Of a stretch of DNA of 64,000 nucleotides, positions 14,086 through 51,798 are shown in pieces (within the stretch, counting starts at the first letter, position 1; each line of letters starts with the position of its first letter). The translations under genes were made by a program, and so were the position numbers. The notes beneath the pieces were generated by a model. It searched no databases and was not told where the DNA came from. It saw only the letters and a list, made by a program, of their open reading frames with translations. Source of the stretch: Carposina sasakii (Eukaryota; Arthropoda; Insecta; Lepidoptera; Carposinidae); NCBI GenBank assembly GCA_014607495.2, contig CP053150.1:11738495-11802494 (forward strand). Direction: 5' to 3'.

Positions 14086-14096
14086 CAGCATTCCGT

Positions 14097-17000
14097 ATGG
14101 CGGATGAGACGGCTGCGGAGTGCCTGTTTGAGAGGTTGCGGCTGCATCAGCAGAGGGCGCCGGACGCCACCGAGGTGGGAAGAGCCATCACTGCGAGGAT
14201 CAACTCGAGGCTCACTTCACATGGTATGTTCATTATCCTAGACTAGCGACCGCCCACGACTTCATCCGCGTGAGAGAGCATTACACCCGTGCGAAGCCCT
14301 AGTTATACATATAAATCTTCCTCTTGAATCACTTTATCTATATAAAAAACCGCATCAAAATCTGTTGCGTAGTTTTAGACATCTAAGCATACGGACAGAC
14401 TAACAGCAGGAAGAGACTTTCTTTTATAGATGTAGTTGTCCCAATGGTGACTTATAGCATTAGCCTGATGAACCTTGAGTGAGGAAGTGAGTACCCTAAG
14501 CTGGCTCCCAACATGATTTAAAATAAGTCCTATCTGCCGTTTGTATGTACATCCAGTAAGGTCGGTACACTTGACCTTAATCTAAACTATAAACGCTGAA
14601 TCGATAGCCAGACGGCTGTGCACAGGGGCGCATAAGCGTAGTAATACACCTCTCAAAGTTGTACCTTATTTTAAGAGCATCGGCCAATAATGAAACAATT
14701 CCAAGTTCAGTCAGAGACTTCAGTCACAAATTCTACAAACCAGAAGTATGACTTTTGAAGGCTCTTTTGCTGTATGGTAATGTGTTAAAAATATGTGACC
14801 AAAGTCTTTAATAAATACTAATTTTCGTTTACAAATAGGTACTAACTGAGACAGGAGAATATTCGTAACTAATACCTATACATATAGAGATCTCTTTATC
14901 ATCCTATTTAGATCAAAACCAAACAGGCGATGCACATTTCAACTAGACTGCATTATTATTATTACATTAATCTACAAACAAATTGCAGGTAATTTTGGTT
15001 TAAGTAAACTATTACTTGTGGCCATAATTATTTCCATCAGGTTAGTCATTCTCTTACTCTTTTGGAAGAACCTAGTAACCGAACATTCAATGAAACTATT
15101 AATAGTTTGACTTATTATGCGCATGATGGTGGAATCAAAATGTTTACATTCGTATCTTGAGATCTAGGAATAGCGGCCAATTTAACGTTGTTTATTGGAC
15201 AAATTAGCGTACCTTTTAGATCTTTGACAAAAACTTTGATATCATGGTGCCAACAATTTATTGTAAGTTGGGCACCTCTGGCACCTTGATGTAAATAGTT
15301 ATAAAAATAAAGTTAAAAATAAAATAAATAAATATTTCACACTTAAATCCAGAGAATAAGGATAAAGTGATTTTCAAGTGCAATGACTTATTTTATCTCT
15401 ACCGACAAAATTGGCAATTTATCTAATGCGCTATATATTGATACTGTTGTAGCGCTTAGTCAAGGTTCTGGTGAATCAATGTCACGGGAACCCTTATTAG
15501 CATGTAAATAGATTAGTGACAATAATATTATACGGTAGTTTCGTTTAAAGCGAAGCAACTGTAGAAATTGTCTTGTCTTTTTGCAAATAACGTTTTCCAA
15601 AAGACATTACCTATAAGTTTAATAGTAAACGGTACCTATTGTTGGATTGTTGGACAATAATACTTTGATATTGTTAATTTATAGTCCCACCGCCCGTTTC
15701 TCCAACGGTAATCAACCGTGCGTCGGTGTCACATATTATCCTGAAGCATTTGCGCTGACGTGCTTTTCAAATATGGTTAGTAGTGTTGACTGTTTCTGCA
15801 ACCGAGTGTAAATAAAACATAGTAAATACCTATATAGAGCGTAGAAAACATAGACTAGAAGAAAGTTAATAAGCACATATTATGTCGCGGTCGTCGTAAA
15901 AATTGACCAAATAAGAATCTAAAACTCCCCCTGCCCTCGTTGTATCGTGTAGACAACAAATAAACAACGTACCTAAGCGTCTACAAAACTGCATTTTGGC
16001 GTCATTCCAAAAGCGGTTTTTGACGACTTTCATTACTAAATAAAAAGAAGCATGGGCTTCGTGAAGTGCGAGTTTCGAAGTTTACTTTTGCGTAATCCAG
16101 TTCTGTAGGGACTTCTGCCAATTTTTTCTTAAACAAAGTCTATAGTAACTGGGCAGCGGTGTGTCGAAACATGTGTGTAGGATGTGTCTAGAATGTAACT
16201 AATGACTACATTCATCATCGTCTTTAAAATAATTGCTGTTTTATCAGCGCTGTTTGTGATTTTCTTGTGAATTTAAACTAGTACAGGAAATTTTCAAATA
16301 ACCGTTTTTTGTAACTTTTAGACGGGATTGCAGTTACAATGTAGGTCACCTTTTTTACTAACTTCGATGTGATTGGGGTAAAACTTTTGTAAAAGACTAC
16401 TATATGTATAGATATTCTATTAGCTCAACTTTACAAAACTCGAAGTCCCAACAAACAGACTTGATGACGTGCATCAAAGCCATAAGGCTTTAGAAACTAA
16501 AACTGATTAGATAGTGAAGTGATATTTCAGATAATTTTCCTTCTGGAAACCGGAATTTGTAACCCTAATATTAATGGTGCTAGAAGTTCTGCAAAATGCG
16601 TAACTGAGTTAGAAAGTTCAACCCTTGCGTGTAGCAGCCCGCTCAGCTAATTTCCTACCAATAAAACTAATACTTACCCTCGAAAATGTTGGTTATCTTT
16701 CATTTATTTTAGAAATCGGCCCAAAATGCCTACACCAATTTTGATGGAATTTTCAATTAATCTTATCTTAGCATCCTTTATGTGTATATTTTATTATACC
16801 TACACACCCGGACTCTTATCTGAGAAATCACTAGTGACCAAAAATCCTAAGTAGGATACGAGTATTTGAAATAGATTTTTGCCATTATCAAAGTTGCGTG
16901 CTAAGCTAACTAGACTATTTGACGTAAAAGCAATGAACCTTGGCGTGCAGTCTTACACCCCTACACGCATTACAAGGGCGATCAGTGCCGGAATAGGCAC

Positions 17001-20000
17001 CCTCGATTGTAAAGCTGCATACATTGGTTAAAAATATCAAATATGCAAATAGCTCTAGATATACCAACCAAAGTCAAAATTAGTAAAATCAACTTAAACT
17101 GTGCATGGCTCATCCTATAACGGACGAGGCTCAAACAGCATTTAAAATGGCGAATGAGTTCGGTTATTCCACTATTAGGTACCTACATATGTATTCAAAA
17201 GTAGGTAATACAAATTAAGTATAACTCTATTGAGGCATACATAACTTGATCACCAGCTTTTACCGTGTCGATTCCTTGTACATATTACTAGGATAAAAGG
17301 TGATGTAAAATAAATACATTGCAAATCTAAGTACCTGCGGCTAGGTGCAATATTGCATGTTTAAACGCTGTTTATTATAAAATTTTGGTGCAGTCGGCCC
17401 CCGGCGAAGAGCGCTCGGGCCGATACCAAGTGTTACCATTATCATTCTGAGTAACACTACACTTCTTACTAGTGTTACATTCGGTACTGTCAGTACCAGG
17501 GTTACCATCTGGTCCCTTGTGGCAATTTGTTCACCACTTTGGCACCAATAACGGAAACTGGGTCACGCGAAAAGGCATTTTGTCATCAATTTTATTTGTT
17601 TTAACGTAGTTTGTTATTATCTTAGCTATCGTTTTATTTAATTCAGCAGTAGGTATGTCGACTTAAAATTGTGTAACTTTTAAAAAATGAATAATTAAGT
17701 ACTACATTTCTCTATTACTTTTCATATGTAGTAGATGTTGAACTATTCACTTGGTTGGCCGTTACGGTAGCATCATCGTGCCTGCCCTCACATAATTACA
17801 GACTAGATAGCTACGAGTATAAAATAGCAATAATTAACACGCGTTGGTTATTTCTGGACAAGTATAAATCAGTTGGTAACCTTGAAATTGGCAACTCTGC
17901 TCTCCCGGAGTATGCGACACAGATGCCAATAAACTTCGTTTTATTGCATACAATTGGTGTAATTTGTCACTGGCAATAAATCGGATTTTCCTCATGTTTG
18001 ATACCGAGGTATTGTTACCGCTACTGCTGCATAGTGTTTTAATTATGCATTACTTTGAAAGTTTTGGTGAAAACGCGTTTGAAATAAATGTGTAAATTAT
18101 TTGGGTTAGTTTTATGAATTTTACCTTTGCATCGGAGAAGTGTAAGTTTTCAGTATCTCTTGAAACTATTGAAATATATTTTGTACTAGTGGACGCCCGC
18201 GACTCCGTCCGCGTGGACTACAGAAAAATCAAAATGTCGAAATTATCCGGGATAAAAACTCCCGGGATAAAAAGTAGCCTATATGTTAAGTAGGACCTGT
18301 CACAATATATTCCTGAAAATTGCATCGAAATCGGTTCAGCCGTTTCTGAGATTAGCGTGCACAAACGCACAGACAAACAGACAAGCATCTAATATTAGTA
18401 ATACAATGTAATCTGAATACCAATTAAGATGCAATCTATTTAATGCAGCCATTGTAAATAATGCACCAAATTATTCAATTACATTGGTAGGTACCAGAAC
18501 AGGAAGATGGGTGGTTATTTGGCATTTGAGACTACATACTGGTATGTTATAAATCCGGTTTTAAATGCTCGATTAAAATATCGATTACTTGTGATTAAGT
18601 ACCATGGAAATAAAATCGCGATTGTTGTACAACGAATTCAAAATAGTCAAGATTATGTGCTGTCCATTGCCAAATTTGCGATAAGTATTTATGATCAATT
18701 AATTGATTTTATTTAAAAGACTAGTTAACTAGCTAAACTTCAACTATTAATAACTAAACTTCCTTATTTTAATAAACTTGAAGTAGAGACGTCATAACTT
18801 AGTGTAGGTGTAACATGAGATGGATGAGAACGACATCGGTATCTCACTTGTAAATGTCAAATACACGGACCAAATACTGTATTTTGGGTTTTAAAAGCCT
18901 TAAAAGCAAGCAATTAAAAGGAATTCTCTGCACAATTTTAATCGGTCCGCACTCGAATGTTGTCATCTTGCACTCTAAGTAGGGCTTTGCACTCCTTTTT
19001 ACACACGAAGTAAATACACATTTGGTCTAGTTATTCTAGGTGTGTCGATATTGATGTTTCTATGTGAGATACGCCACTGTCACACATCTCATGCTTTACT
19101 GAATTTTAAGCAAAAGAAAAACAATAACAATTAATTTTTAAAATTTATAATTTCAGTATTGTTCAATCCCGTAAAGTGTGTGCCGATCTAGATTATTTAT
19201 GATTAATTTGGCAGCTGGTAACAGGGACATGTTTACAATTTTGTTGTCGGTGTGCGGTGCCAATGATATGATGTCTCTTGGGACAGCAATCTGCCGTGTA
19301 CCAGCACTTCCTATCATTCATCATATTAGTCTCTCATTTCCGAAAATGTTTTTAATCTCATATATAAATAATTTATGACAGATTGTAGTGTCTTAGTAGT
19401 ATATCTTAGGTAGATATTTTGATGCCCAAAATATATTTTGTGTTCTTGTTAAGAGTTTTTTTGTCATTATCCATCACCAACTCACGACTAAAAAATAGTT
19501 TCATGAAAGTTTCAAATAAATAAGTAGGTAATGAAAAATTAAACATTTTTTTAATAATAATGCGTGGTCTAGTTGAATAGTGTTGGCAAGGTGGAGTCCT
19601 TTTCATGGAATAACTTCTTTGCCTGATTTCGGAACTAATATATTTGTTTTGTAGCAACACAGATAAAGTTGTCATGCACATTGTAACTAGCGCCATTATC
19701 CACGGTCCATCTTGGCGGTGATTTTATGTAGGCACGAACCACGAAGTAAACGGATGTCTTGCTTCTGGCAAAACGTTTTGTTACTATGCTCCCAAATTGC
19801 CCATGACATCATGAATGTCTAAAATTTTAATGGCTTACGTAGATGTTATATGGTTCGATGCATCCGATAAAAAAATTATGAAACGCATTAACAGATAACT
19901 ATGATATGAGACAGAACAGAACGGGGCATGAAGGGTTCAAACAAATACTTAGAATTAGCTAGCATAGTAGTTAACTTAATATGTATGTCTTCACTGAGAT

Positions 20001-23000
20001 TACTTCCCCGCCTCGCTCTCCTCTGCCTACCTTAGTGATTTTATAACCTCAAGTAAAGGAAATAATTTTTATGAAAAAATTTTTTGTTTAGTTTTGTTAT
20101 CATAAAATTATCCAAAACTATCCCTTGCAAATGAACCCGAAGCTCATTATACTATAGAAACGCTGATACGCCGCCGGCAGCGGATTTCCCTGGAGAGTTG
20201 CCAATATGGCGACCGAGACTCATTGTCACGACCGCGAGAGCAAAACACCCGTGCAGTATGCGCTATGCACATGGCCTAGTAACTGGTATGCCGATACCAC
20301 GATCGGTATGCCACTGGTACTGAAGAAGATATGTCCGGTACTGCATTCAGTCAGAATATTGCATAAACAATAAAATGTTTAGACTGCTATGTTTACTTCC
20401 GCCTCGTGTGTGAGATCAATACTCAAATTATCCAAGCGTCATGTTATTTACTGGTGCAATGGAACATAAGGAGTAGACTGTAACTACACACAGGAGTTTT
20501 AATCCATTGTTTAGTTTCTGCTACGACAAAACCAACCTTAGCATGCAATAATGCATATCATGGTACCATAACCAGAAAGTATGATTTAGTTTTATAGTTG
20601 TAAAGCTTGTATACGCTAAGAAACGTCTCCAAACCTATGCAAGATTTCGTATTTCAACATACGAACCTTTCCCTTTCCCATCTCCAAAGAATAGAAAGTT
20701 AGAAAGACAGTGAAGTACGTTAGCGTACGACACGAATTCAACCAGATACTAAAATATCCCTCTACAATCCATCACGAGATAGCCAGGTTTTAAAGCCTAC
20801 CATATTTAAACATGCAAATTTCTACAATGTAGGTACTACATAATTCACCGTAAGATTTCCATAACCAGTTCGTCATAGCATTATCCTATAATTATATATA
20901 AAGATTGCTACATTCGGTTTACTCATTGTGTGACTTATAGGTAGAGCAATTATAGCAGAGAGACGTATTTTAGATGGATAAAAAGAGCACTAGGCGGCCT
21001 CGGGAGTGCTCCAGTTGAGGTGCCATGGCGGAAATGGTGGACCGTCGTCGTCGCGCCGCCGAGGCCGCCCTTTCGCTACAACAATCATTTTATCTTCAAA
21101 TACCCGTTATTCTTTAAATAGCTCTAATTAAGTAAGTGTCGATTTATCCAAACGTCAGATAGCCTATCAGAAGAATAAAGTTTATGTTGTCTTTCTCTAA
21201 AACTTGATCATGATAGAGACATCATCAACTTTATTCTTCAGATAGGCTATCTGACGTTTGGAAAAATCGGCCCTAAATTGAACAATAATTAAACCTACTT
21301 AAAATAAATCTCGAAAAATCACATGGGCCGTTTAATAAAATACTTATGGTAGCTCAGGTAGAAACTACAAAATAATATAATGGACTTATTGTTTATTTGT
21401 AATTTTTATTATCTTGAAAATCTCGCCTTTGAACATTGTCTATGTTAACTATTTTTCCGTACGTATATTTTTGTGTCCAATAGAGAATGAGAATAAAAAT
21501 ATATGAAATCATACCCACATTGGCGAATCGAATGTGTTAGTACTTTCAGCATGATTACCTAGGTACATAAGTTGCTCATGATAGTTTATTTGTTTGCAGA
21601 CAAGCATGTCCGTCAGAGCACACTGGACAAACTGTGGAACAAGCAGACTGGAGCTATTCAAATGCTACTGTCAATATTGGAGGTAAGCTCTGCTGTTTTG
21701 TAAAAATGTTGAAGAAACTCTCTTTAATAAGTACCTATTACATCGAGTTCTTCAATATTTGCCTACTGGCAAATAAATCAAAACTGTATAAAAGGTGTTT
21801 TGTAGGCGATGGGTTGACCACCTGTCACTACTAACCGAACTTGTACATCTCAACTATACCCTAAAAATTGGTCAGAAGTGGCACCATGTGGTTCTATCGG
21901 CCCTTGGTGATCTGCCTACCTCGTAAGGGATAAAGGCGTGATTATATGTATGTATACAGGGTGTTTTTTGTGGCAACCATTAACGAAGGGTACATACTCT
22001 ATACATCAAATAAAGTAAGTTTTTTTTATTTTTTTTTATTTTTTATTTTTTTTTTATTACTTGATCGGGCGAAATTTATAGTGTCTAGTATTTATGTTAG
22101 TTTTTTTATAGACAGATATTAATTATTTCTCGTGAAAAAATCTTGCTACGCGCGTCTATGTGCATTTATTCAGAAAAACGCAGTCTATTTACTCAACTTT
22201 GGACCTTAATATTTTGAAAACCAGACACTTCCCAGGTATGCTTCCATGGAGAAAAATGATCGTGATGATGAGGAGATTCCGTAGTTTTCGGGAACGTTGA
22301 CGACCAAAAATCACCCTGTACATAAATTTCTCGTAAATAACTAATCGCCGTACAAAAGGTAAAAACAGTTTTCAATAGCAATAGTTTGAAATAAATAACG
22401 ACTAATTCATTGTGTAACAACTATGTAGGTAATCCTTGATCAAACGATACTATGCTCTCTTGTGAACTGGGGATTCGCCAGAATTCTAGAATACTTCAGC
22501 AGCATCTTCTCCCAAGCAATATCTCCTTCTTACAAGGGACTCAGGCTATGGATTAGCAACTGCCATCTTTTACATCTGGCATAATTATTATGACGAAGAA
22601 TCTCTTTCCTGATTTTGCGGCTCTGGTTAGGTACCCTTATTGGTTTATTTTTACAGAATTCCAGAGATGCGGCAACGTGCACATATGTCACATCAATACT
22701 GCGGGAAGCTCTTTGCTTGAAACAGGGGAAAGGCAAGAAAAGCTCAGGTGATTTATATTGATCTGTTATTATAATTACAAAGATATAATCCAAAATAACG
22801 AGATAGACATATTGTGTAGACTGTGTTAAGTCACCTAAAGTCATATTAAATTTAACAAAGTAATGCGACGAATTTTGAAAGTTTGATGAACAGAGCGAAG
22901 AATAAGTGCTTTTAGGTGCTTTAGAATATATCACATACTAGTTTTAACACACTTCGTCAATCTCGTTAGATTAGAGATTTCTATTTATTTTAAAATATAT

Positions 23001-26000
23001 TATATTAGAATTTGTACATTTCATATAAATATTTATTTTTAATATTAGATATGTATATTTAAATACAACTATCAATATTCAAGGACATAATATAACAATA
23101 TTGTGTAATAAAATATACCTATAGTTCAATCGGAAGTTCCAGCGAAGAAGGAAATAAAAAAACCCGGCAAAGAGAATATAGCACCTCTGGCGAAGAAGGG
23201 TATGTCATCGTGTGCAGCTTAATAAACAGGAAATTTGTAATTAGCTAACATTTAACTTTGTCCAATCAGGGACAGGACTTTAAACAATCGATTAGGAAGA
23301 TATTTAAGGTGGATATAGTTATTTTTTATGTGACTTAAAAAAGTTGTAACCAATATTTCTAATTTGTAATTACGTTTACAATTACAATAAATTGGCTAAA
23401 CCCCGTAAGTCGGTCCGTTTTAATGCTTATATACCTACTCGTATAATAGCGTTAACTTTTCCTAACCAAATATCATTGTTAAGTAAATAGTTAATGCAAA
23501 AATAATCACATCAAAAATAATAAATTCACTAACTGGTCAGCTAAAAAGCATGTCTGTGGTCTTTCTGCATAGCGTGTGTATGTGATTAACAAAATGATAA
23601 TTTAGGTAACACTCATTTAATCTAAGCTGTATCTGCGCTCTATCAAATATTTGATACCAGTTTATTCTGGCCCACCTATACTGACATTTAAGACGAGCTT
23701 ACATGACAACTTGACATTGGACTACTTGAAAACACGGCCTTCTAATCTTCATTATTGGAGCGACTGTATATTCAATTGTCATTTTACGGCACTCAATCAA
23801 ATTAGCATTATTTCAACAATAGCTGCAATATCACAGATAATCTATTATACATCTACGTGGGTGGTAAAAACATTAGAATAATTTAAGCTCCAAAAGATTC
23901 CCTCTATTATCTTTTGGAAATAATGTACTGAAATCACGAATTTCATTTCAAAACCTTAAACTGATAATCTATTTCATAAAAACGAATCCCATATTGGCAA
24001 TCAAAATTTTCAGCGAACAACATTACAAGGCAACAATGCTCGCAACATTTCATATCAATAAACGGCACGCAAGCGATGATTCGTACGTTGCTTTTGACGC
24101 ACTCGAAAAGGGACGGAAACGTCGGCACTGAGCTGATGATGCAAGATCTCATATGGATCCTCGCGGCCCTCGCGCCCAAAGGTATGGCCCAGCTAATTCG
24201 GCACTTGTATTCCAGCTAACAACCTCGAACGCCAAAGATTTGCACAGTTAGTCATCGAACTGAAGGGTACAAAAGTGATCCTTCGAAAAATCATTGCACT
24301 AGTCCATGGAAGACGAAACCGCCACAGCCCAGCGATAGGCGTAATCGTTGAGGATCTCTTGTGGTTGCTTTTTCCTTTGGGATCTAAAGGTTAACCTATT
24401 AGTTTTTTTACTGCCTATTAATAAGGATAGCATACAACTTTACAGCTGTATTGGGGAACTGATAATAAATATGTTTATTTCTTTCAGATCCAAAATTTGC
24501 GATGAAAGTTAGAATGCTAGGCTGCGTCAGGACTATGCACTTGGTATTGAAAGGACATTTTACAGATAATAAACTAATATTTCCACTCCTTGTTATAATG
24601 AAGCAACTGGCAAAGAACCGTAAGTATTACATTATTATATGTGCAATTATATTAGCCGCGTGGTGCCGGCAGAGTAGAATTCGTACCACCCCATGTCTGC
24701 CCGTGGGTATCGTACGAGGCGATTAAGGGTTTCCGGGAGGTGGGCAGCAGCACCTCCCGTGTTGACAACATAGTCCAAAATACAAACTGCGGTCACCAAC
24801 CCGCCTGCCCAGCGTGATGACTATGGGCAAATACCCCTTATGGCAGTCTTGTGGCGTGCCCTGGGGGAGGCCTACGTCCAGCAGTGGACTGCAACAGGCT
24901 GATAATAATGATGATTTTAAAATGTCTTGAAAGTATTTTTAACTATTATCATTTGGAGCTATTCCCAGTCCTTCAGCGGCCCATGAGAACTCGTTAACAT
25001 ATGAGTAAGTGTGATTATTATATTTTTAATAAATGTGTATATCTTTTTCAGCTGTTACAACATCTATCCTGATACGAGATGGTGTCATAGCCACTTACGA
25101 AAGAGTTCTTGTAAGTCTCGGGTTCATACCGACAGCACGACTTCGCTTATGTCTCGATGCCATTGATTATTTTAGCAAAAACAGTTAAGTATACAGATTA
25201 TTATTCCCAAGTATTTTTACCCTTGTTAAACCGTGGGTAATATAGTAACTTCCAAGGCCACAATGGTCATTTATGTGATTAATTATACCCAAGTGCTAAT
25301 ACAATAAGATGTTTCATATTAGTTGACGACCTACACACAGTCACCTGTCAACCCTGTTGTCGCATGACGATGTATGTCACCGAAACAATGTGCATCGTGT
25401 TACACTATAGATTTATTGTACACCTACTCCAAACAATAAATTAATCTGACAAATAAATTAATGAACGTGATCGTAGGTACATTACATGGTTGAGACGACA
25501 CGAATAACTCTTGCGTTTATTTTTAACGTTAAAGTGGAAAAGTGTGATTTTGTCACACAATTTAGTAGTACTGAAATATACGAATATTAAATAAGAAGCA
25601 TATTAATAAAAAATAATTGGTATCTTCTTACGTTAATTGCATGATCCAATGACGATACATACAATATCTACTGAGGTAGCTATTTTGGACATTTTGGGAA
25701 ACCGAGGTATTGAAAGGGTAGATCTTCTACCTTATAATGAAAAACATTACAGAAAGTGTTAACAATACAAAATTCACATAAAACACAGCATCTACACCTC
25801 CAAATTATATGTTAGCATGTGGTTATTTACATGTCACAATTGTACAAATGCATAACTCAAACAGAGGTGTGCTGCATGCAGATAGTGAAGACAGGCCTCT
25901 GTAGCGTTCTTCTGAGGGTGTTCGACCGGTGGGACCGGTACGAGGGGCGCATGCGGCTGAAGATATGCGCACATGTACTCCAAACTCTTCAGCACCTGTG

Positions 26001-29000
26001 CAACATTAGTACGTATTATTTTATTTCTTTAAAGAATATATTTGTTTCAACTCTCAGCAGCACTTATTGGAACCCGGTCGCAGTGCCACCTTCCGGATTC
26101 AACTATGCGTTAAAATCCTGTCTGGATCAACCGAAATATACTCAAAATTTATTTATATTATCAATCAGCAGCAATCATTTCTATATGACGCGACGTAAAG
26201 AAAGATCAAGATCCGTCCAACCATTTTATTGTAATAGATAGAGTTAGTTGACCGTTTAAATGAAAGTCATACCATGACTGAACAAATACTGACAGAATAA
26301 TATACGTTATTTCAGAAATGGGACGTCGAGCACTCTGCACCAAGAAACATGTGCAAACACTCCATCGCTTCTGTTCACAATGTCCCGACGAGCCCGAGTT
26401 CGATGGACTCCTCGCTAGAGTGTGCTCCGTCATCACACTGTGCCTCAAACACCAGAGCTTACCTATTCCTGCCAGCAGTCCTGCTAACTACAACCTTACA
26501 CCGATATTAAAAGGTATAATTTTTGTGTTTCATTCAACTAGAGCCTATTTACCTCTGGTCAGTAGCAAAACTATAAAACATTGCTAAGATTATAAGTTTT
26601 TAATACCATAACTTACTGATTCTCTGTAAGTTTATATTTATGACCTGAAAAGTAATTGTTATTAATGGCTGCACTTGCAGCAATATGCCAAAGTTATTAA
26701 TATAGTAAGACCACTCTGAGTCTAATCAATTTTAGACAATTTAGATAACGTTATTTACGTAACTTTACAGGAACTAATGCTAGCTGGCCATGCCATGAAG
26801 ATGAAGAAGATGCTGCCAATTCTGATGCTAAGACTATAAATTCAGATGTAGATGATGATGATGGACAAGATACTGATTTGGAGGGGATCGATGAATTCCC
26901 TGATACAGATTTAGATGAGACTGAAATAAAGCCTGACATCATAAAGGGTGAAGACTCTAATAAAACTATTTTAAAAAGTGAGGAAAGCATGCAAAGCTCG
27001 CTTTGGATAAACCCTAATGAGAGAGATTTGGAAGACTTAAAAAAGTTAGTTCTGCTAGTTCTCTAGTAAAAAATATTATTAGGTACAATATTTCTACAAC
27101 CCTGATCTTCAAAACTTTTCCATTTTTACTTTCAGATATTTTATATTTTTCAAAGAATTTGGTTCCTATAATAAACAAGTAAGATTAGTGAAAAGTCGAT
27201 CTAATTCAAGGGGCTCGATCTTAGAAGATTTCTTACATACTCAATCGGGTGGCAGAACTGTTTCTTCCTCGTTGAGTCTGTCTCTCAGCGCCGCTTTCGG
27301 CAATACTGATTACGATCAGAATTTCGGCTTGCACTCCCCTTCTGCCAATCTCTTCCATAAAATTCATGATAGTACCTCATGTAAGTAATTTAGTTGCGTA
27401 TATTTTAGTCATCTTTCTCTTTTATAGTGGCGTAAAATTGTCTTGAATAATAATGACGTGTCACTTTTATCATAAATTTTATAATGTTACAAAATTATTA
27501 CCTTTCAGCTATAACTTCAAATTCCATCCTTAAAATCCATAAAGATATTTCGAGGTTCTGTTCTTTTGGATCGGTGTACAGTATTATAGCAACTAGAGTT
27601 CGCAGTGTCATTCCATTTGTCAAAGTGGCGTATCCAGACATGATGGGTGGTCAGGGTCTCAATCATCCTGAACCACTCAACCAGATGGAAAGATCCGCTT
27701 GCAGGTTAGTTTGCATGGTATCCATTTAATAAAGTATGAAAGTGAAATACATTTTTTTTGTCTATATGTTTTTTACAGAAACAAGTTATTGGCGTGTGTT
27801 GATAGAGCTATCAATCCTGAATCGTATATGAGTGAAGTAGTATATGATCTGGATGCTCTATGTGCGAACGTTGATGCACAGAAGAGGTATGTATAAATTT
27901 TTCTTATATTTTTTTATAAAGACAGGCGTTCTTGAAGTACTTTCTTTTATGATTTCGTTCATTTAAATATTTTGCACGTAATTGCGGCAGATTAAAACAA
28001 CTCAGATCGTTTAAGATTAAATCTGATGGCCTACTTTTATTTTCGTCATCACAAAATGCTTGGAGCTTGAATTATTGTATTTTATCTTATGGTTCCAAAG
28101 TATAAACCCAGATAATTTATAATATATCTCGGTTATAATCGAGATATTATTGTTTCTTAATATAAGTAATTTATTTAGTTCCAGCTCAGAAGGCATACAC
28201 CAGCTTGGAAATACTGACGAACAAGAAATCACAAAAGTTAACAACTTTTCATCACGCTTGAACTTTGAATCTAGGTTCGAATCCGGAAATCTTAGAAAAG
28301 CTATTCAGGTAAAATTCTATAACTATTGAGATGTTCTAAGCGTAATAAATAACCAAATAAATATTCACCTGAACTAAAACTTCAATTTCTATAATTTTTT
28401 AGGTAGGTCCAAGAGAATACGAACTGATATTGATGCCAGATGTCAACTCATCAAAAAGACACCAGTGGTTTTACTTTGAGGTGCGGAACATGACGCAGGG
28501 GCGGCCTTATGTGTTCAATATTGTTAACTGTGAGAAATCCGACAGCCAATTTAATTTTGGAATGAAGCCTGTCATGTATTCAGTGAAAGAAGCTGTTTTG
28601 GGCAAACCAGGTAAGAAACTTTCATTACCTATTTCAATTTTAAAAATCGGTCTCTATGATAAGAAATGTTTGGCTAAAAGAATATTACAGAAGGATAACT
28701 TTCTACGTTAGCAAGTACCTAAATTTTTTTAAAGTATCTAACTGGCCTATTTAAACTTTTATATACTAATGTTATTTGTCTTATGTTTTCAGGTTGGATA
28801 AGAGCAGGTACAGATATTTGTTACTACCGGAACAGCTACTACTATGCCAACCAGAAGAGCCACGGCAAGTGCTACCTGACCGTCACCTTCAACATCGAGT
28901 TCCCGCACTCCAATGACGTGTGCTATCTCGCTTACCACTTCCCTTTCACCTATTCCATGTTGATGGTAAGATTTTAATTAGGGTATATATGGATGTCTTT

Positions 29001-30366
29001 ATCAATAGGTTTCTATAGATGGATTGTCTTTATCAATAGTCAAAAAAATACCTTGTACTTTGCGGAGTACCTTCCTAGTAATAGGTATTTTATTTTGAAG
29101 GCTCATTCTCAGAAGACTTAGGGTTATACATCATTCTTTGGTTAGCTTTTGGTTATAGGCCACAGCCATATGTATACGTATATAGAAATAGGTTATAATG
29201 ACAAATTCAGATGTCCTAATCATTCATCAGCAAAAAAACTGAACAATAAGTTATATAATAATAATCGTTTATTGCTTCCAAAACAAAGGTAAATTGTACA
29301 AACAATAAGATAAAATCTAAGTTATGTACATCCATTTACACTAAGGATCCTTTGTCCCCTGCACTAGGTAAAACCTGTCACTGCAAGGTTACAATGACTT
29401 TCCTAAGCGAAATAAAATATTACAAATTTATAAAGAATGAAAGGTCTACCTTGAATATGTTGCACCAAGTTGGTTGCAGACACGATTATGATTGAAAATG
29501 GAGATGCAACGCAAATTATATGACAGTTCTATATCTAAAGGCTTCGGTAAATTACGTTTTCAGACGCGAATTTTCCAATGGGGTCACCAAATGCCACCAT
29601 CTACTTACTTCAGAGCGGAACCCCTCTGCTACTCACTGAACGGCAACGAAGTACCTGTGCTCACCATCTCGGCAGAAGACTCGCCCTCCAATCCCATTGT
29701 GGTACGTTTATTTTTGTTTGCTATAATTATGTTCAGTATATTTTTGCAATTACAGTATTAATCGATTTAAAAAAAGGATTTCAAGAAATAGTAGCTATCA
29801 AATATCTTTTGGGGTATAAAATCCTGCAATGCGCGGAGGACTTGTTAATACGTCCATTCCAGGAAATTAGTTCCTCATAGATACTGCTTATAGTCTGCAA
29901 GAGCCTTGTTTTAATATTATAGAGCTAAACACTGCATTCTTAAGAATAGATTGCTCTGCTGATACAGTGATTCGCTAAAATACAACGGCTGCATCTCCTC
30001 CCGTGAACTCGGGCATTCTCTCAGGCGATAAGCTAGCAACTTGTCACTGATCATTTCCATTTGTTCCCCGTACTGTGGGATCTCCCTTATGATCACGCAG
30101 GTCTGGTTATCCCATTTTGGGAATACATCCGTGTTTATGTATAAGTATGTTAATTGATTTTTTAAATACTTTTCTGTTTTGTTGCAGGATCGTGACATAA
30201 TATTCCTGACGGCACGCGTCCACCCCGGCGAGAGCAACGCTTCATGGGTGATGGACGGCACTTTGGCCTGCCTGCTGGGAGAAGCGGCTGCTACCGCGGC
30301 TCTCAGGGCCAAGTACGTCTTCAAGATTATACCCATGCTCAACGTGGAAGGGGTCATCAACGGGTG
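14097..30366 (+). CDS. Cytosolic carboxypeptidase, Nna1/AGTPBP1 (CCP1) type; 3' part of catalytic domain not found
   Basis: M14 metallocarboxypeptidase that in animals removes C-terminal glutamates from tubulin tails. Exons: 14097-14223, 21600-21682, 22657-22747, 23125-23199, alternative 24014-24181 or 24216-24389, 24488-24619, 25052-25183, 25865-26008, 26316-26513, 26771-27044, 27136-27380, 27509-27704, 27779-27886, 28179-28308, 28403-28610, 28793-28965, 29564-29701, 30188-30366. Every junction agrees in phase, giving 933 (or 935) residues so far. About 1-370 is an ARM-like helical N-terminus ([18 protein letters not shown]). About 390-465 is acidic ([14 protein letters not shown]). About 590-830 is the N-domain of CCPs ([50 protein letters not shown]). 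The zinc motif [13 protein letters not shown] holds ligands His886 and Glu889. The exons for the third zinc His, the substrate Arg and the catalytic Glu were not found in this window. Start: first ATG, 7 codons before a Cys-Leu-Phe-Glu stretch, preceded by an acceptor. Confidence 0.93.
14242..14442 (+). repeat. Interspersed retroelement tail, diverged
   Basis: Begins ACTAGCGACCGCCCACGACT, then CATCCGCGTGAGAGAGCATT and CACCCGTGCGAAGCCCTAG, and ends with ATACGGACAGACTAACAGCA. The front half matches type 1 (7270, 47473); the rear differs. Confidence 0.65.
18185..18402 (+). repeat. Interspersed retroelement tail, type 2
   Basis: ACTAGTGGACGCCCGCGACT, CGTCCGCGTGGACTACAG, AAATGTCGAAATTATCCGGG and AAATCGGTTCAGCCGTTTCT are followed by a TAATATTAGTAATA end. 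Same family as 8791-9018 and 62311-62542. Confidence 0.78.
20993..21069. repeat. GC-rich inverted repeat with a short open frame
   Basis: GGCGGCCTCGG at 20993-21003 is mirrored exactly by CCGAGGCCGCC at 21059-21069. Between them is a GC-rich segment with ATGGCGGAAATGGTGGACC (ATG at about 21025) that opens a 34-codon frame rich in Arg and Ala. It lies in intron 1 of the carboxypeptidase. Confidence 0.7.
21134..21275. mobile_element. Palindromic MITE, 142 bp
   Basis: CGATTTATCCAAACGTCAGA, TAGCCTATCAGAAGAATAAA on the left are matched by the reverse complement of ATCTGACGTTTGGAAAAATC on the right; arms about 45 bp, few mismatches. Ends 325 bp before coding exon 2 of the carboxypeptidase. Confidence 0.8.
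21957..22318 (+). mobile_element. MITE family B, copy 1
   Basis: Starts TA-CAGGGTGTTTTTTGTGG and ends GACGACCAAAAATCACCCTG-TA. Internal landmarks: TTACTTGATCGGGCGAAATT, TGCTACGCGCGTCTATGTGC, ACGCAGTCTATTTACTCAAC and AGGAGATTCCGTAG. Includes a T-rich run at 22020-22060. In intron 2 of the carboxypeptidase. Three more copies are in the window. Confidence 0.85.
24014..24181 (+). other. Carboxypeptidase alternative exon 5a
   Basis: 168 bp, phase 1 at both ends, 56 codons when completed by the G of exon 4. Acceptor ATCAAAATTTTCAG, donor GTATGG. Reads [20 protein letters not shown] and ends [11 protein letters not shown]. It aligns with the segment of vertebrate CCP1 around ILLQLLM to HSILAKIGPKD. 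Homologous to exon 5b. Confidence 0.9.
24216..24389 (+). other. Carboxypeptidase alternative exon 5b
   Basis: 174 bp, phase 1 at both ends, 58 codons. Acceptor CTTGTATTCCAG, donor GTTAAC (weaker). Reads [20 protein letters not shown] and ends [14 protein letters not shown]. It matches exon 5a in length (plus two residues in the middle loop), phase and pattern: ANN at the start, R.Q, I..GT, then D-L-[IL]-W-[IL]-L and a final K. The gap to exon 5a is 34 bp (24182-24215). Confidence 0.9.
24655..24915 (+). mobile_element. Lepidopteran LINE 3' end with GAT-type tail
   Basis: GCCGCGTGGTGCCGGCAGAG through ATGACTATGGGCAAATACCC and GGGGGAGGCCTACGTCCAGC to CAGGCTGATAATAATGATGA. A widespread lepidopteran non-LTR 3' UTR; shorter copies end at 35488, 50010 and 55487. 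Inserted right after the donor of the carboxypeptidase exon at 24488-24619. Confidence 0.8.
25184..25864 (+). other. Carboxypeptidase intron, no other feature seen
   Basis: Donor GTTAAG, acceptor ATAACTCAAACAG. AT-rich and without recognisable repeats. A later AG (GCTGCATGCAG) is out of phase with the preceding exon; the chosen acceptor keeps phase 1 and gives [14 protein letters not shown]. Confidence 0.6.
28966..29563 (+). other. Carboxypeptidase intron with probable LINE 3' UTR remnant
   Basis: An AT-rich block beginning ATAATAATAATCGTTTATTG at about 29260, running to about 29450, resembles the minus-strand 3' end of a jockey-like LINE (compare the start of the copy at 10756). No coding remnant is seen. 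Confidence 0.4.
29880..30180. repeat. Interspersed repeat fragment in the last visible carboxypeptidase intron
   Basis: CTCAGGCGATAAGCTAGCAA and CTTGTCACTGATCATTTCCA recur in near-identical form at 58973-59010 (CTGAGGCGATAATCTAGCAA, then CTTGTCACCGATTACTGGCA). It is probably a retroelement fragment; orientation is unknown. Confidence 0.5.
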
Positions 30367-31108: not shown

Positions 31109-34100
31109 CTAGTAAGAGGGGGGTGCCAGCATGCCGCTGGCGTGGACGGAATGCTCAGTAGCGTCCGGCTCGGCTGTGGAGGCGTCCTCTCCGGCGTCCT
31201 GCAGATAGGCCGAGGGGTCGTCGCCGGCCATGCCGTCCTCTTCTTCGTACGGGACGGCCGGCTCCTCCTTACGGTCGTGATGGGCGTCGGCGGCCCTCGA
31301 GTAGTGGGAGTCGATTTGCGGGGGCGACTTGAGGAGGTTGTTGGTCTTCAAGTGCGGGGACTGGAGGCCGTCGAGCGAGGAGGGACGCAGCTTGCCGATG
31401 AGGTCGTTGAGGGTGAAGTGGGTGGGCAGGTGCTCGGAGCGCGGCGGCGGCGGCGACGGCGACGTGAGCGGCAGCGCCGTGGTCGTCGTCGTCAGCGACA
31501 GCGGCTTCCTGCCAACACGCACGACCCTCGTGTTAGAGAGTCGCTTTACACTCATTGACTGCCAATCATTATTTATTATATTAGACACCATACAAATCAG
31601 CGTTTTTGTTGGCATGATATCCCACCAAATAATAACGACAATCAATAGGTAAGTAGTCGATAGATCACACATATATAGAAAAGTAATTCATTACCACGTA
31701 CAATTATATTTTATGTGATGTTTTTGTGATGGCATTATGTGCATTACGAGTAACACCATAAAAACGTGTCAATTATGATTGGTCCCAGGTTTTATACAAG
31801 GATTTGAACAACAACAATTAACTCGTACGTATTAGTGAAATAGATGAGAAATACAATAATATAAGTACAGTTAGTAACACACAACACAGTATCGCTTATA
31901 AAGAGATACCAAGCAAAGCCCCCTTCACCCACCCACCAAATGATTTGCATAAATTTTGATCAGCTAACTTCTAAATATTACAAACAAAATGGCCGAAATT
32001 GAATACTGTTGGGTGTAGGGCTCTTGTTTGGTGGTTGGGTTGCCGCAGAGGCCTTATCCCGCGGGCACACGCGCTTCGGTCTCGAAATTCTTAAGGGCAC
32101 ACATCTAAACTAAACTGTTAGGTTAGCACACTCACTACTTAATCTAGTTACTACTAAATGTCCCGTTGAAGTCGACAACAGACTTTTTCGAACGGAACAT
32201 AGAGATAAGCTACAGAACCCGATAGTTGGGGAGTGGAGAGAGCGCGCGGCTAGTCGGGGAGCGGGCCTCCGGAGACGGCTGGCATCTCACCTGGCATTAC
32301 CCCTGCGCGGAGGACACGGGGATGGACCCGTAGTTGTAGTAGTAGCAGCGCGTCTGCTCGCAGATGAAGTCCTTGATCTCGCCACAGTGCTGCGGCTCCC
32401 AGTGGAAGGTCGGGGCTTTGAGCGCTACGCAGCCGTTGGTCATCACGTGTTCCGTTCTGCCAGACAGACTATTTATTATGCAAAAACGACTTCCTAGAAT
32501 GGGCAAAGTCAACCTATATACAGGATGTTTTTTGGTCGTCAACGTTCCCGAATACTACGGAATCTCCTCATCATCACGATCATTTTTCTCCATGGAAGCA
32601 TATCTGGGAAGTTTCTGGTTCCCAAAATATTAGGGTCCAAAGTTGAGTAAATAGACTGCTCTTTTCTGCATAAATGCACATAGACGCGCGTAGCAACATT
32701 TTTTCACGAGAAAAATTAATATATGTCTATAAAAAAACTAACATAAACACTGGACACTATAAAAAAAACATATTTTCCCAGTATTTTTTTTGCATAAAAT
32801 TACTTTATTTAATGTATAGAGTGCGTACCTACCCTTCGTTAAGGGTGGAAACCAAAAAACATCCAATATAGACATTAAAAAGTGCAGACCAAATGACAAA
32901 TGGCAGCTTCATTAACCTCATTCATACCTCTATTTCTAAAACCTATAAAAATTATAAAAATATAAGTAGATGGCGTATCCAGAAAATAAGAATCAAATTA
33001 CGTTACGTTAAAATAATGATGCTTTTAAACTAGGTATAATATAATTTACAATATTATAAAATTATTAATAAAGAAATGGAAAAAATTCCTCACCCGGGTG
33101 GGAATCGAACCCACGACCTCTGCATTTACAATGTTAAAAGAATTATGCAGATAGGTAGGTACCTAGCATTTTGCGTCAAGACAACTGCAAACTCCTCGTT
33201 CATAAAATGTTGCTATTTAAACATCATGATTATGTAGTTTTGAAACACAAGCTGCGTAATCAACATATCTATGCCTGGCCATCAAGTACTTTCGAGACAC
33301 AAGCTCTGCTGCATAAGCAACCTACCCGTGTCGGGCAGTGCGTTGCGGCGCCGTGCTGCCCTGCGGCACGTCGAGCGGGTCGATGCTGTCGTCCGCATGC
33401 TGGTTGGGGGTCTCTAAGACCCGGCGCATGTAGTTGAAGGTGGCGTTGAACGGCAGACCGGTACTCATCCACAAGTACATGTCAGTACCCAGATTGTTAC
33501 CGGACGTCCAGAAGTCGTATTTGTTGTACCCTGGAATGTTATTTGAATCATCAGCGGAAATATTGCGGGTCTTTGAATTTGCGTACTTAAACGATAAGTC
33601 TTGAATTTCTAACAAATTTAGTTTAGCTTAAATTTTTTTAAATTAGCTATGTAAATTATCTGATTCTGCTAGAACTTTAGATTTTTGTACCTCTTAAAAT
33701 CTAATTGACAAATTAGTAATTTAAAACTGCTCCTATGGATATTTGCGGTAAACATTATTTAGACTTTGTAAATAATATATATTGTAATTTGTGTGCAATA
33801 AAGTATAAAGTAAAGTAATATAGTAGAATCCAAAAATACAATAAACGAGTTACGAGAAATTATTACATACCTGCATTCGTAAGATACGTAGTTATGGAAT
33901 CAGCCTTTTCTTTTGTTTCAAATGATGCTAGCTGCAAACCCAAAGACCTGAAAACAAATGCACATATTCTTTAATAAAACACAATTTATGTACTCAATAA
34001 AAGATCTGAATAGGGCCTTTAATATTCTAGACCTAAAGGTGGGAGGTATACATAAAGAAGGAAGAAGAAGAAGGAAGGAAATTATTTATTCAGCTTTTTA

Positions 34101-49100: not shown

Positions 49101-51798
49101 TTATGTCATTTTAAGTGGTTCATATACGTTGTAGATATAATGTCAATATTATCCATATATTGTGTTCGATTTTTTATATTTATATTAGAATATAATAAGA
49201 TTCTAGTTCAATCAACCTTATCAATACATTTAACCAAATCTTGTCCTAATAGTTTCAAAATTTGTTCTTTTGTATTATGAAAATGGATAAACGTTTGACA
49301 CCTAAACGGAAATTTAATCCTAAAAAAATACTGTAGACTAGTGTATCCATTTAGCCAAGTAAAATTTGATAGGTTTGTGTTATTATTTAGTTGTTTATTT
49401 CTAATTGTCCCGCTGAAATTGATTCCAAAAATAAAACCATGTCTGTTAAAATAAAATAAAAAATTGTTATTCGCCCAGACTAAAAAAAAAATATAGTCTA
49501 TGCATTTTCGGGTATGTTGTAGACAGAGCTTTGACAGACAACATCAACTTTAACCTTTACATAGGCTATCGGACCATTGAAAATATCGGCCATTGTTATA
49601 AAGGTATTATGTCATACCCATATTGTTGAATAGTCCATATCTTAAAATGGTCAATATAATCTTGTATATTAATAATACTATCGTAAAATCTTACATACTA
49701 CATATTATAGATTACAAAGTCTCACCCGAGTGGGATTTGAACTCACGACCTCTCGCAAACCGTGCTTTTGTTCTAACCAACTGAGCTATCGGGTCATTTA
49801 ACTCGGATGACGAATTTTACCATCTCTTTTAAATTACGTTTTTGGCGAAGTTATTTTTTCATCCCGATAGCTATACACTAGCCAACTATATTTTAGACCA
49901 TATTACTCGTATGGTCATGGATATAATAAACCATTTTATAATTGTATTTATCCTTACCTGACCATATGAAATTGGGGGAGGCCTACGTTCAGCAGTGGCT
50001 GAAATAACTATTAATACACGTTAAAATCTAAGTTTATCTTGATTTAAATGTGTATATCGCGGAAAGCTCTATCATTTGGTATAAGTATGTAGAGCAAATT
50101 ACACAACAGATAGTCAGAATGCGGGTCGACCTTAACTATTCTATTTATTTATTTATTACAGCTCTGTGGACAACCAACAGCTTATAAAACAATATAATAT
50201 ATTCTATAGCAACAAAGAAGCCAATTACAGGTTAAAACATGTAACAATAACATACGTAGTTTTAAGAAGTTAATAATTTCAATTATTACCTAATAGTAGA
50301 ACTGCCTTAAAAATCCATGAATAGAGAACATTGACATCATGTGAATTTATATATGAAGTACAAAAGCTGCGTCAGAGCAACAATACCCGCTGCCCAACTC
50401 ACCACTACTGTTCCGAATCAAAGAATTTACTGCTTATGTGCCGCCTAACAATCGCCACACTCTTACCGTTAAATAAATTGATATCCAGTTCATACGCTAG
50501 CTCATTCAATGCTTTGCTAGCCCTCCAAAGAAAAGCATTCTGTTGGTAGTTCGTACGAACTCTGGGGAGAGAGATAGGAGGATAATAGCGCCTAGACTTA
50601 ACTGGTACAGAAAATGAAATTTTTCCCAATAATTCCATAGAATCAATCGCTCCCGTAGTGATGCCTAATAAGTAGGTTAGATCTGCAATTTGCCGCCTAG
50701 ATTGAAGTGGCAATAAATGATGTTTCCTACATAAGGCCAAGTACTGACTGGAATCGTATGGATACTTGCACCTAAAACAGGTGTACTTAATGAACCTACG
50801 CTGAATAGCCTCGATTCTGTCTATATAGATGTCATACATTGGGTTCCATACTTGTGTTGCGTATTCCAAGTTACTCCTGACTAAACTGCAGTAGAGAATT
50901 TTAAACGTTTTAATTCTGGAGAAACAAGATGAGCTGCGAAACACAAACCCCAGCGCTCGAGTAGCCTTCTTAATTATGCCATGTATGTGTTCGTCAAACA
51001 GAAGTTTGGAGTCATGTACGACACCCAAATCTCGGATAGTGGACAATCGTACAAGCAACTGACCTTTAAGGTCTATCCTGAACAGGGTCCTTGCACTTAA
51101 CAAATATTGAAACATGATTGGTTACCAAAAGTCATTAGGTATAATTTACACTTACCTATCTATTTTATGTAAGTGATTTTTGTGTCACGATTATTGACCA
51201 ATTTTTTCTGGAGTGGTGCGATGTTTAAAATATTTTGGTTATTTTTGGTCTACGTATTAGATTTCTGTTTAATCTTTTCGTGCATCAGTTCAAATATCAG
51301 ACATTTGATCTTCCGCTGTTTGTCTTTACTGCTATGCGCCGAATGTTTAATCAAGTGGACTATGAATTATTCAAATAAGATGGACCATTATAGGTATAGC
51401 TTAAGACAGCGGATATCCGTTATTGGTTGGCTAAGCTTTTATTAGAGCGTTATTGAACTCTATCTTTCGATCTTTAAAAAAGGATAGGCATTTTTTTACT
51501 ATTTTTATTGCATATTATTTATATTACCCATCTTATGCTAGAAATAAAAATACTTAAAGCGGGATATTTAAAAAAAATATATCTCGATATTTACCCATAA
51601 ATTAAACCAAATATAAAATGTTATCTTTAAGCTACTGAAATGATTTCAGTGATTCTCAATTAAATTCAATTATGTAGTGACATTATTTTGATATTTCTAT
51701 TAGATAGATTCAGAATGTGTATGTACTAAAGACGTACCTGCAATAGGGGCGAGGGTGGCTGCGAACAGCAGAAGGGTTGTGGCTAAAACGAGCTGCAT
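31109..51798 (-). CDS. Secreted C-type lectin-domain protein with Ser/Thr/Pro-rich tail, six exons
   Basis: Exons on the minus strand: 51798-51738, 38091-37986, 33947-33871, 33530-33326, 32456-32301, 31508-31109. All phases agree and give 334 residues. Residues 1-20 are a signal peptide (MQLVLATTLLLFAATLAPIA). About 30-187 is one C-type lectin domain: YFISRMNPYSPELNYF, Cys55, LGLQLASFETKEKA, FWTSGNNLG at 88-96, YLWMSTGLPF, Cys159, Cys174, FICE with Cys182. The expected pairs are 55-182 and 159-174. The loop at about 127-155 is longer than usual, and the WND calcium motif before Cys174 is HWEPQHC, so classical calcium-dependent sugar binding is doubtful; ETPNQH may be a remnant of an EPN motif. 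Asn110 is in an NAT sequon. The last 132 residues are extracellular-looking: TTTTTALPLTSPSPPPP, then a mixed acidic tail (YEEEDGMAGDD). It could be a haemolymph or cuticle-associated lectin; Drosophila Clect27/schlaff-like proteins are a possible relative. The symbol is not certain. Confidence 0.9.
32521..32866 (-). mobile_element. MITE family B, copy 2
   Basis: TA-CAGGATGTTTTTTGGTCG at the left, degraded right end CATCCAA-TA. Contains the inverted landmarks GAATCTCCTCATCATCACGA and GCACATAGACGCGCGTAGCA. It lies in a lectin intron, its edge 64 bp from the acceptor side of the exon at 32456-32301. Confidence 0.8.
33050..33125 (-). mobile_element. tRNA-derived SINE, copy 2 (truncated)
   Basis: Minus strand GAGGTCGTGGGTTCGATTCC (perfect B box), CACCCGGGTGAGGAA, then the tail TTTCTTTATTAATAATTTTA. 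The A-box half is missing. In the lectin intron between 32457 and 33325. Confidence 0.75.
34252..34439. mobile_element. MITE with perfect TIRs and TAA target duplication
   Basis: GGGTCGGTTCATATCTGACG (to GGA) at the left is the exact reverse complement of the right end, 22 bp; TAA flanks both sides (34249-34251, 34440-34442). A 3-bp TAA duplication is typical of PIF/Harbinger elements. 188 bp, non-coding, with an internal palindrome (GCGTCGAGCGTATCAG / ACGCTCGACGC). In lectin intron 2. Confidence 0.88.
35385..35488 (+). mobile_element. LINE 3' end with GAT tail, short copy
   Basis: GTGACTATGGGCAAATACCC, GGGGGAGGCCTACGTCCAGC and TAGGCTGATGATGATGA match the end of 24655-24915. Confidence 0.78.
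35745..35931. mobile_element. Palindromic MITE family C, copy 1
   Basis: CCCCCTGATTACGTAAAAGC and AAGCAAAGCGATAGCGAAAA at the left are mirrored at the right by TTTTCGCTATCGCTTTGATT and TTAGGTAATAAGGGGG. About 187 bp, no coding. The second copy is at 48659-48841. Both lie in introns of the lectin gene. Confidence 0.85.
39535..39670 (+). mobile_element. LINE reverse transcriptase C-terminal fragment
   Basis: One frame reads RPKKCWMDMREDMRVPGG, then EITYIRDQWKKSRYILRRPK and a TAA: the usual extreme C-terminus of lepidopteran RTE/R1-type RTs (GRPKKRW...DM...DR..WK pattern). Short and 5'-truncated. Confidence 0.7.
42850..43650. repeat. Inverted pair of degenerate TTTGCC(C/A) arrays
   Basis: 42860-43015 (plus sense) holds repeated words such as GTTTGCCCC, CTTGCCCGAA, TTTGCCCGAATCTG, TTTGCCATAAT, TGTGCCATAC and GTTTGCCCGAAAA about every 18-22 bp. 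43450-43640 holds the reverse sense: ACGGCAAATGATTTTATGGC, ATTATGGCTTAC, ATTATGACAAATGA, ATTATGGCAAACAA and others. The 430 bp between them are ordinary, including a short CTAACCTAACCTAACC run at 43361-43377. No clear terminal repeat or coding is seen. Confidence 0.65.
44165..44385 (+). repeat. Interspersed repeat with pseudo-open frames
   Basis: GACCGTATTTCGGCCAAGGC through CACAAGTGTGTGTGCAAACA to GACCGGAGAGAGATCAGGCG and GTGCTTTCCGAGGCACGAGC. I recognise this block as a recurrent lepidopteran genomic repeat, probably part of a retroelement. Two 73-codon frames cross it but have no protein-like conservation. It is preceded by a GAAT microsatellite (44150-44167). Confidence 0.6.
47473..47671 (+). 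repeat. Interspersed retroelement tail, type 1
   Basis: ACTAGCAGCCGCCCACGACT, CCGCGTGAGGGGGCGTTGTA, AAATGGGCTATCTAACACTG and a CAGCTTTATAATATT end; near-full match to 7270-7467. In lectin intron 1. Confidence 0.8.
48659..48841. mobile_element. Palindromic MITE family C, copy 2
   Basis: CCCCTGATTACCTAATCTGC, AAGCAAAGCGATAGCGAAAA, CAATATTCGCCTTGAAATGT and right arm TTTCGCTATCGCTTTGCTTT ending AGGTAATAAGGGG. Very similar to 35745-35931. Confidence 0.87.
48871..49088. mobile_element. MITE with long TIRs and TCA target duplication
   Basis: AGGCTCGACACACCCGATGC and GTGTGCGTGCACGTAAGCGT at the left, CGCTTACGTGCACGCATACG and CATCCGGTGTGCTCGAGCCT at the right; arms about 55-60 bp with a few mismatches. 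TCA flanks both ends (48868-48870, 49089-49091). A middle segment repeats the same GCGTATGCGTAGACGTAAGC theme. 218 bp, CpG-rich. Confidence 0.85.
49500..49600. repeat. MITE remnant related to the 21134 element
   Basis: GGGTATGTTGTAGACAGAGC, CAACATCAACTTTAACC and ATAGGCTATCGGACCATTG, then TATCGGCC. Words shared with 21134-21275 and with 1020-1090. Confidence 0.45.
49715..49800 (-). mobile_element. tRNA-derived SINE, copy 3
   Basis: Minus strand GACCCGATAGCTCAGTTGGT (A box), TTAGAACAAAAGCACGG, then GTCGTGAGTTCAAATCCCAC (B box) and TCGGGTGAGA. ACCCGA at the 5' side pairs with TCGGGT at the 3' side as in a tRNA acceptor stem. The poor anticodon arm and matches to two other copies make it a SINE head rather than a tRNA gene. 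Confidence 0.78.
50140..51115 (-). mobile_element. 5'-truncated jockey-like LINE, RT C-terminal 236 codons
   Basis: An uninterrupted minus-strand frame from 51115 to a stop at 50405 reads VRLSTIRDLGVVHDSKLLFD, ATRALGFVFRSSSCFSRIKT, YCSLVRSNLEYATQVWNP and IDRIEAIQRRFIKY: the thumb and C-terminal region of jockey/I-type RTs. The catalytic part is absent. A 3' UTR runs to an ATTT-rich end at about 50148. The open frame suggests a fairly young insertion. In lectin intron 1. Confidence 0.88.

Follow-up and report, generated by a model that had tools for sequence, protein, structure and literature searches.

The CCP1-type carboxypeptidase gene in a 64,000-nucleotide stretch of the Carposina sasakii genome (hereinafter, the window) contains two adjacent homologous exons with the same phase, c1 and c2. 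In lepidopteran CCP1, these two most likely arose by tandem duplication and are spliced in a mutually exclusive manner, the spacing between them presumably enforcing the exclusivity. The pair itself is real and conserved, and its members are very probably mutually exclusive. A lepidopteran mRNA apparently uses one exon only, so that one unit of the docking domain of the enzyme can be swapped.

The exon pair and the surrounding gene

The coordinates of c1 and c2, their lengths of 168 and 174 bp, the phase 1-1 arrangement, the GT and AG dinucleotides and the 34-bp gap between the exons, all of which were given in a preliminary description of this DNA, are confirmed in the sequence (Table 1). The homology of the two encoded peptides, also claimed there, is borne out by 32.8% identity over 58 aligned columns, with a BLAST score of 39.3 bits. 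As had been noted, the reading frame is kept with c1 alone, with c2 alone or with neither; c1 joined to c2 is also in frame, both lengths being multiples of three, so that exclusion would rest on spacing rather than on the frame. When the 34-nt gap is retained, translation runs into a TAA stop at 24217-24219, just within c2 (the c1 frame spans 23980-24219). Comparison of the exon-pair DNA with the 399-Mb genome of Carposina sasakii gave one match, the window itself, and no third copy of the exon was seen either in this DNA search, in which diverged copies would be missed, or in a tblastn search of the window.

Table 1. Coding exons and other features of the CCP1-type gene, in window coordinates
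Feature	Position	Strand	Description
First coding exon found	14088..14222	+	tblastn only; boundaries approximate
Exon a	21600-21682	+	ARM domain
Exon a2	22657-22747	+	ARM domain
Exon b, upstream of the pair	23125..23199	+	75 bp; lacking in some isoforms of relatives (e.g. P0032, P0024)
Exon c1	24014..24181	+	168 bp, phase 1-1, ANNITRQQ...AALAPK; c1-type armadillo repeat
GT...AG gap between c1 and c2	24182..24215	+	34 nt; probably too short for splicing
CTAAT, branch-point-like	24193..24197	+	pattern match only; A at 24196 is gap position 15, 19 nt before the gap end; candidate c2 branch point, too near the c1 donor
Exon c2	24216..24389	+	174 bp, phase 1-1, ANNLERQR...FPLGSK; belongs to the c2 class of Lepidoptera and evolves fast
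Exon d, common, downstream of the pair	24488..24619	+	DPKFAMK...QLAKN; 97.7% to Choristoneura
Common exons e-p	25052..30366	+	remaining ARM domain, Pepdidase_M14_N domain, first part of M14 catalytic domain
Exon p	30188-30366	+	first part of M14 catalytic domain

The gene looks like a complete CCP1-type (AGTPBP1-type, M14D) carboxypeptidase, a predicted tubulin deglutamylase. Its exons, which extend from 14088 to 30366 on the plus strand, match lepidopteran CCP1. In Pfam searches, the CCP1 N-terminal helical domain (PF25571) was detected with E 4.3e-58 in the version with c1 and with E 1.1e-53 in the N-terminal part of the c2 version; the M14_N domain (PF18027) scored 37.1 bits, with a cut-off of 23.2, and the M14 catalytic domain (PF00246) reached 20.4 bits, just below the cut-off of 21.6, in a query from which the 3' exons were left out. 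The assignment to CCP1-type enzymes with an ARM-like N-terminal domain, proposed in the preliminary description, is thus upheld by the PF25571 match and by the armadillo-like Foldseek matches discussed below. The probable starts of exons j and k, 27509 and 27779, lie upstream of the model starts, 27590 and 27806, so that the homologue-search and Pfam queries were without some residues of these two exons, c1 and c2 being unaffected.

The remaining catalytic exons, encoding HRCGLTNEDLNRRW, YCDYHGHSRKKN and SYTMEASFCG, were located by tblastn downstream on the same contig. These 3' exons lie beyond the window, at L002:9204-9604 and L003:282-7723, and the intron that follows exon p is accordingly ∼42.8 kb long, running from window positions 30367-64000 on to L002:9204. 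A truncated or broken gene, as might be suspected from the absence of the last exons from the window, was rejected because these exons are found downstream, past the long intron; hence the gene looks complete, with both the M14_N domain and the complete M14 catalytic domain present when the downstream exons are counted.

The ∼42.8 kb intron contains open frames on both strands. Two of these, on the minus strand (32297-32554 and 33322-33627), are C-type-lectin-like by eye, with no Pfam match at E 0.01. A 238-residue frame at 50405-51121, also on the minus strand, resembles by eye the terminal part of a LINE reverse transcriptase; its sole Pfam hit is unrelated and below the threshold.

The c2 class in Lepidoptera

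A homologue search over 5.8 billion proteins yielded 65 homologues, of which 64 come from Lepidoptera. Isoforms are hidden by the clustering of the database at 90% identity, so that the lack of c2 in a row carries no meaning. The c1-type segment alone is present in 51 of the 65 homologues and the c2-type segment in 11, the other 3 being without a usable match. The preliminary description had suggested checking further Lepidoptera for the duplication, and the c2-type segment was indeed found in 11 species, from Plutella to Danaus: Achroia, Pieris, Choristoneura, Danaus, Spodoptera frugiperda, Arctia, Plodia, Leptidea, Hyposmocoma, Mythimna loreyi (partial) and Plutella. Six of the 11 c2-bearing homologues are NCBI-numbered isoforms, such isoform models being predictions. 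Two of these models, Choristoneura X5 and X4, have a common prefix of 142 residues and a common suffix of 960 residues, this exon being their sole difference; in Plodia, there are likewise NCBI isoform models with c1 and with c2. The window c1 is 75% identical to Choristoneura P0012 and 80% identical to Bombyx P0023, and the window c2 is 46% identical to Choristoneura isoform X4.

The choice between c1 and c2 is combined with variation at exon b, a lysine-rich cassette that may be present or missing in relatives' isoforms whichever of the two exons they carry. All four combinations are represented across species, namely, b with c1 (P0012), c1 without b (P0024), c2 without b (P0032), and b with c2 (P0028 and P0035). 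Isoforms of the relatives also vary at the C-terminus (Choristoneura X3 vs X1), and the corresponding exons are located at L003:5313-7723.

Proteins P0066-P0126 make up 61 further rows, in which those that are named are non-lepidopteran and some are unnamed; 11 of these outgroups were aligned, and 7 were put in the tree. Each of the 11 aligned outgroups, the caddisfly Arctopsyche among them, shows one segment; with one sequence per row, a second exon may have escaped notice. Altogether, alignments A1 and A2 take in 43 of the 126 proteins.

The maximum-likelihood tree was built for 49 segments: 30 rows of the c1 type, 10 of the c2 type and 7 outgroups, plus both exons from the window. It omits redundant isoforms, c1 rows of some species and the incomplete c2 of P0055. 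In this tree, which is based on an alignment of 56 columns and contains several long branches, all 11 c2 rows, the window c2 among them, form one group with the support of 99/100, and the c1 rows are not resolved as a clade. The single c2 group implies that the exon was duplicated no later than the divergence of Plutella from the other c2 species.

Conservation of the duplicated exon in other Lepidoptera, another expectation of the preliminary description, was assessed through protein identity. In the five species with both exons, the identity between c2 segments is greater than that between c1 segments in 8 of the 10 species pairs; in the other 2, it falls short by 0.01-0.02. By this measure, the two exons are conserved to a similar degree. 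Together with the substitution test described below, these comparisons point to purifying selection on both copies at the protein level.

The window c2 itself has diverged far. Its branch length is 1.09, compared with 0.10 for the window c1, and in a comparison with c2 of five relatives, it shows 36% identity to Plutella and 47-48% identity to the other four, whereas those four relatives are 79-86% alike among themselves. This divergence, together with a weak donor (GTTAAC) and a weak acceptor, is compatible with the decay of c2 in Carposina sasakii, where the exon would seldom if ever enter the mRNA although the pair is functional elsewhere in Lepidoptera. The lack of stop codons says little against such decay because, in simulations of neutral drift to 50-45% identity, the c2 frame remains stop-free with a probability of 0.12-0.15; therefore, the absence of stops was dropped as proof of c2 function, and a test of conservative substitutions was used instead. 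The conservativeness of the changes in the window c2 was reached in none of the 3000 neutral simulations for four of the five comparators and in 1 of the 3000 for Pieris. Changes this much more conservative than neutral indicate that c2 has been constrained through most of its history. In addition, the frame and the GT/AG dinucleotides are intact, and three of the four c2-diagnostic residues are retained, with none changed to the c1 state. Decay of c2 in this species thus appears unlikely, although the window c2 may have undergone recent relaxation.

Splice signals and the 34-nt gap

Several lines of comparison, most of them with human genes, bear on the spacing of the two exons. A human survey associates a donor-to-branch-point distance of <50 bp with potential steric interference (PMC5740500), and the 34-nt gap, with its branch-like A at 15 nt from the c1 donor, falls within this human 50-bp limit. 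The human ultrashort introns are given as 43-65 nt long (PMC8363638), and, this gap aside, no intron in the present gene model is shorter than the 74 nt between exons j and k (with k starting at 27779). No intron-length limit for Lepidoptera was found among the literature matches listed, and the limits cited here are human. The region 23200-24488 contains one inverted repeat, of 14 nt, with both arms in the upstream intron.

At the level of annotation, the NCBI isoform models of Choristoneura and Plodia use one exon or the other, as expected under mutual exclusion, but c1 and c2 are joined directly in P0002 (Achroia, an NCBI model) and P0056 (Plutella, an unnamed product). Such in-frame joins, to which the multiple-of-three length of both exons lends itself, could mean that c1 and c2 are sometimes included together, adding a repeat, so that the pair would be variable and not strictly exclusive. 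Joint inclusion is nevertheless highly improbable: a 34-nt gap is shorter than even the human ultrashort introns (PMC8363638), and c1 is absent in 8 of the 11 c2-bearing homologues, though P0055 begins inside c2. The Spodoptera frugiperda model P0041 includes both segments with 12 residues between them; by codon count, these extra residues correspond to the read-through of an inferred 36-nt gap by the predictor, so that P0041 appears to support the short spacing rather than splicing of the gap. As for c2 being no exon but an open frame that resembles c1 by chance, the notion can draw on the shortness of the single frame and the weakness of its splice sites but is practically ruled out by the grouping of c2 with isoform segments of other species (99/100) and by its BLAST homology to c1.

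Under the preferred reading of a spacing-enforced, mutually exclusive pair, the c1 donor and the c2 branch point would share a single 34-nt gap, such that the U1 and U2 snRNPs could not both assemble, resulting in steric exclusion. With small weight matrices derived from this gene's own sites, which include the exon k acceptor of the old model start 27806, the donor scores are 7.91 for c1 and 4.75 for c2, and the acceptor scores are 4.23 and 1.88, respectively. Because the splice sites of c1 score higher, it is reasonable to infer that c1 is the default exon and c2 a regulated choice; inclusion of c2 would then depend on the repression of c1 or the enhancement of c2.

The swapped repeat, its possible role and known systems

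In the AlphaFold models of the Choristoneura isoforms X5 (with c1) and X4 (with c2), the segment consists of the same three helices, 140-154 and 157-170 in both models, and a third one at 176-192 in the c1 model or 177-196 in the c2 model. The segment lies within an all-helical solenoid that spans residues ∼36 to 374; the overall pLDDT is about 60, with values of 62-92 across the ten-residue blocks from 141 to 200. A Foldseek search of the PDB with the c1 model returned CCP5 and bacterial M14 enzymes at ranks 1-13, and the rest of the best 50 listed are mostly beta-catenin armadillo structures; a sequence search of the PDB matched catalytic domains only (6 sequences). Judging from the Choristoneura isoform models, each exon seems to encode one whole three-helix armadillo repeat, which agrees with the earlier proposal that the swap involves one helical repeat.

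CCP1-type enzymes trim glutamates from microtubules. CCP1 is described as helping to set the level of microtubule glutamylation; mutations in AGTPBP1 lead to childhood neurodegeneration, and mouse AGTPBP1 alleles cause ataxia and defective sperm (PMC8464709). The exon swap might adjust one side of the ARM solenoid, by which the deglutamylase is positioned, and could act as a switch of partner or substrate. A more specific scenario, which is tentative and rather unlikely, is that the swap yields a second, cell-type-specific deglutamylase, for example, one for sperm axonemes or for a class of neurons, and that the fast evolution of the window c2 reflects a reproductive role; Lepidoptera produce two kinds of sperm. 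Whatever the role, a natural, long-conserved swap of one repeat is a ready-made experiment, with two isoforms that differ within ∼57 residues, and, with a gap small enough for widening in a minigene, the pair also lends itself to testing whether spacing makes splicing exclusive.

Mutually exclusive exons are well known. Among the literature matches listed, in a search that did not extend to most subscription papers or to the main Drosophila survey, which may have a CCP entry, no paper describes ARM exons of a CCP gene as alternative. The earlier statement that no description is known therefore holds for these literature matches but not for the sequence databases, where the isoform models already contain the alternative.

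The variable exon clusters of Dscam in insects are a case of mutually exclusive choice, and the CCP1 pair resembles them as a probable choice of this kind in an insect gene. Unlike in Dscam, there are two exons only, and docker/selector pairing looks unlikely from the one inverted repeat in 23200-24488. Mutually exclusive exons with steric spacing occur in alpha-tropomyosin and in OGDH (exons 4a/4b), and a steric class is described for human genes (PMC5740500). The present pair likewise consists of duplicated alternative exons, with a spacing that would act sterically; it differs in a gap of no more than 34 nt, in its CCP1-type gene, and in that all the homologues found to have it come from Lepidoptera. 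With CCP1/AGTPBP1/Nna1 (M14D), the gene shares the N-terminal helical domain, the Pepdidase_M14_N domain, the M14 catalytic domain and the conserved catalytic segments; what sets the lepidopteran gene apart is the alternative ARM-repeat exon, of which the literature matches listed give no description.
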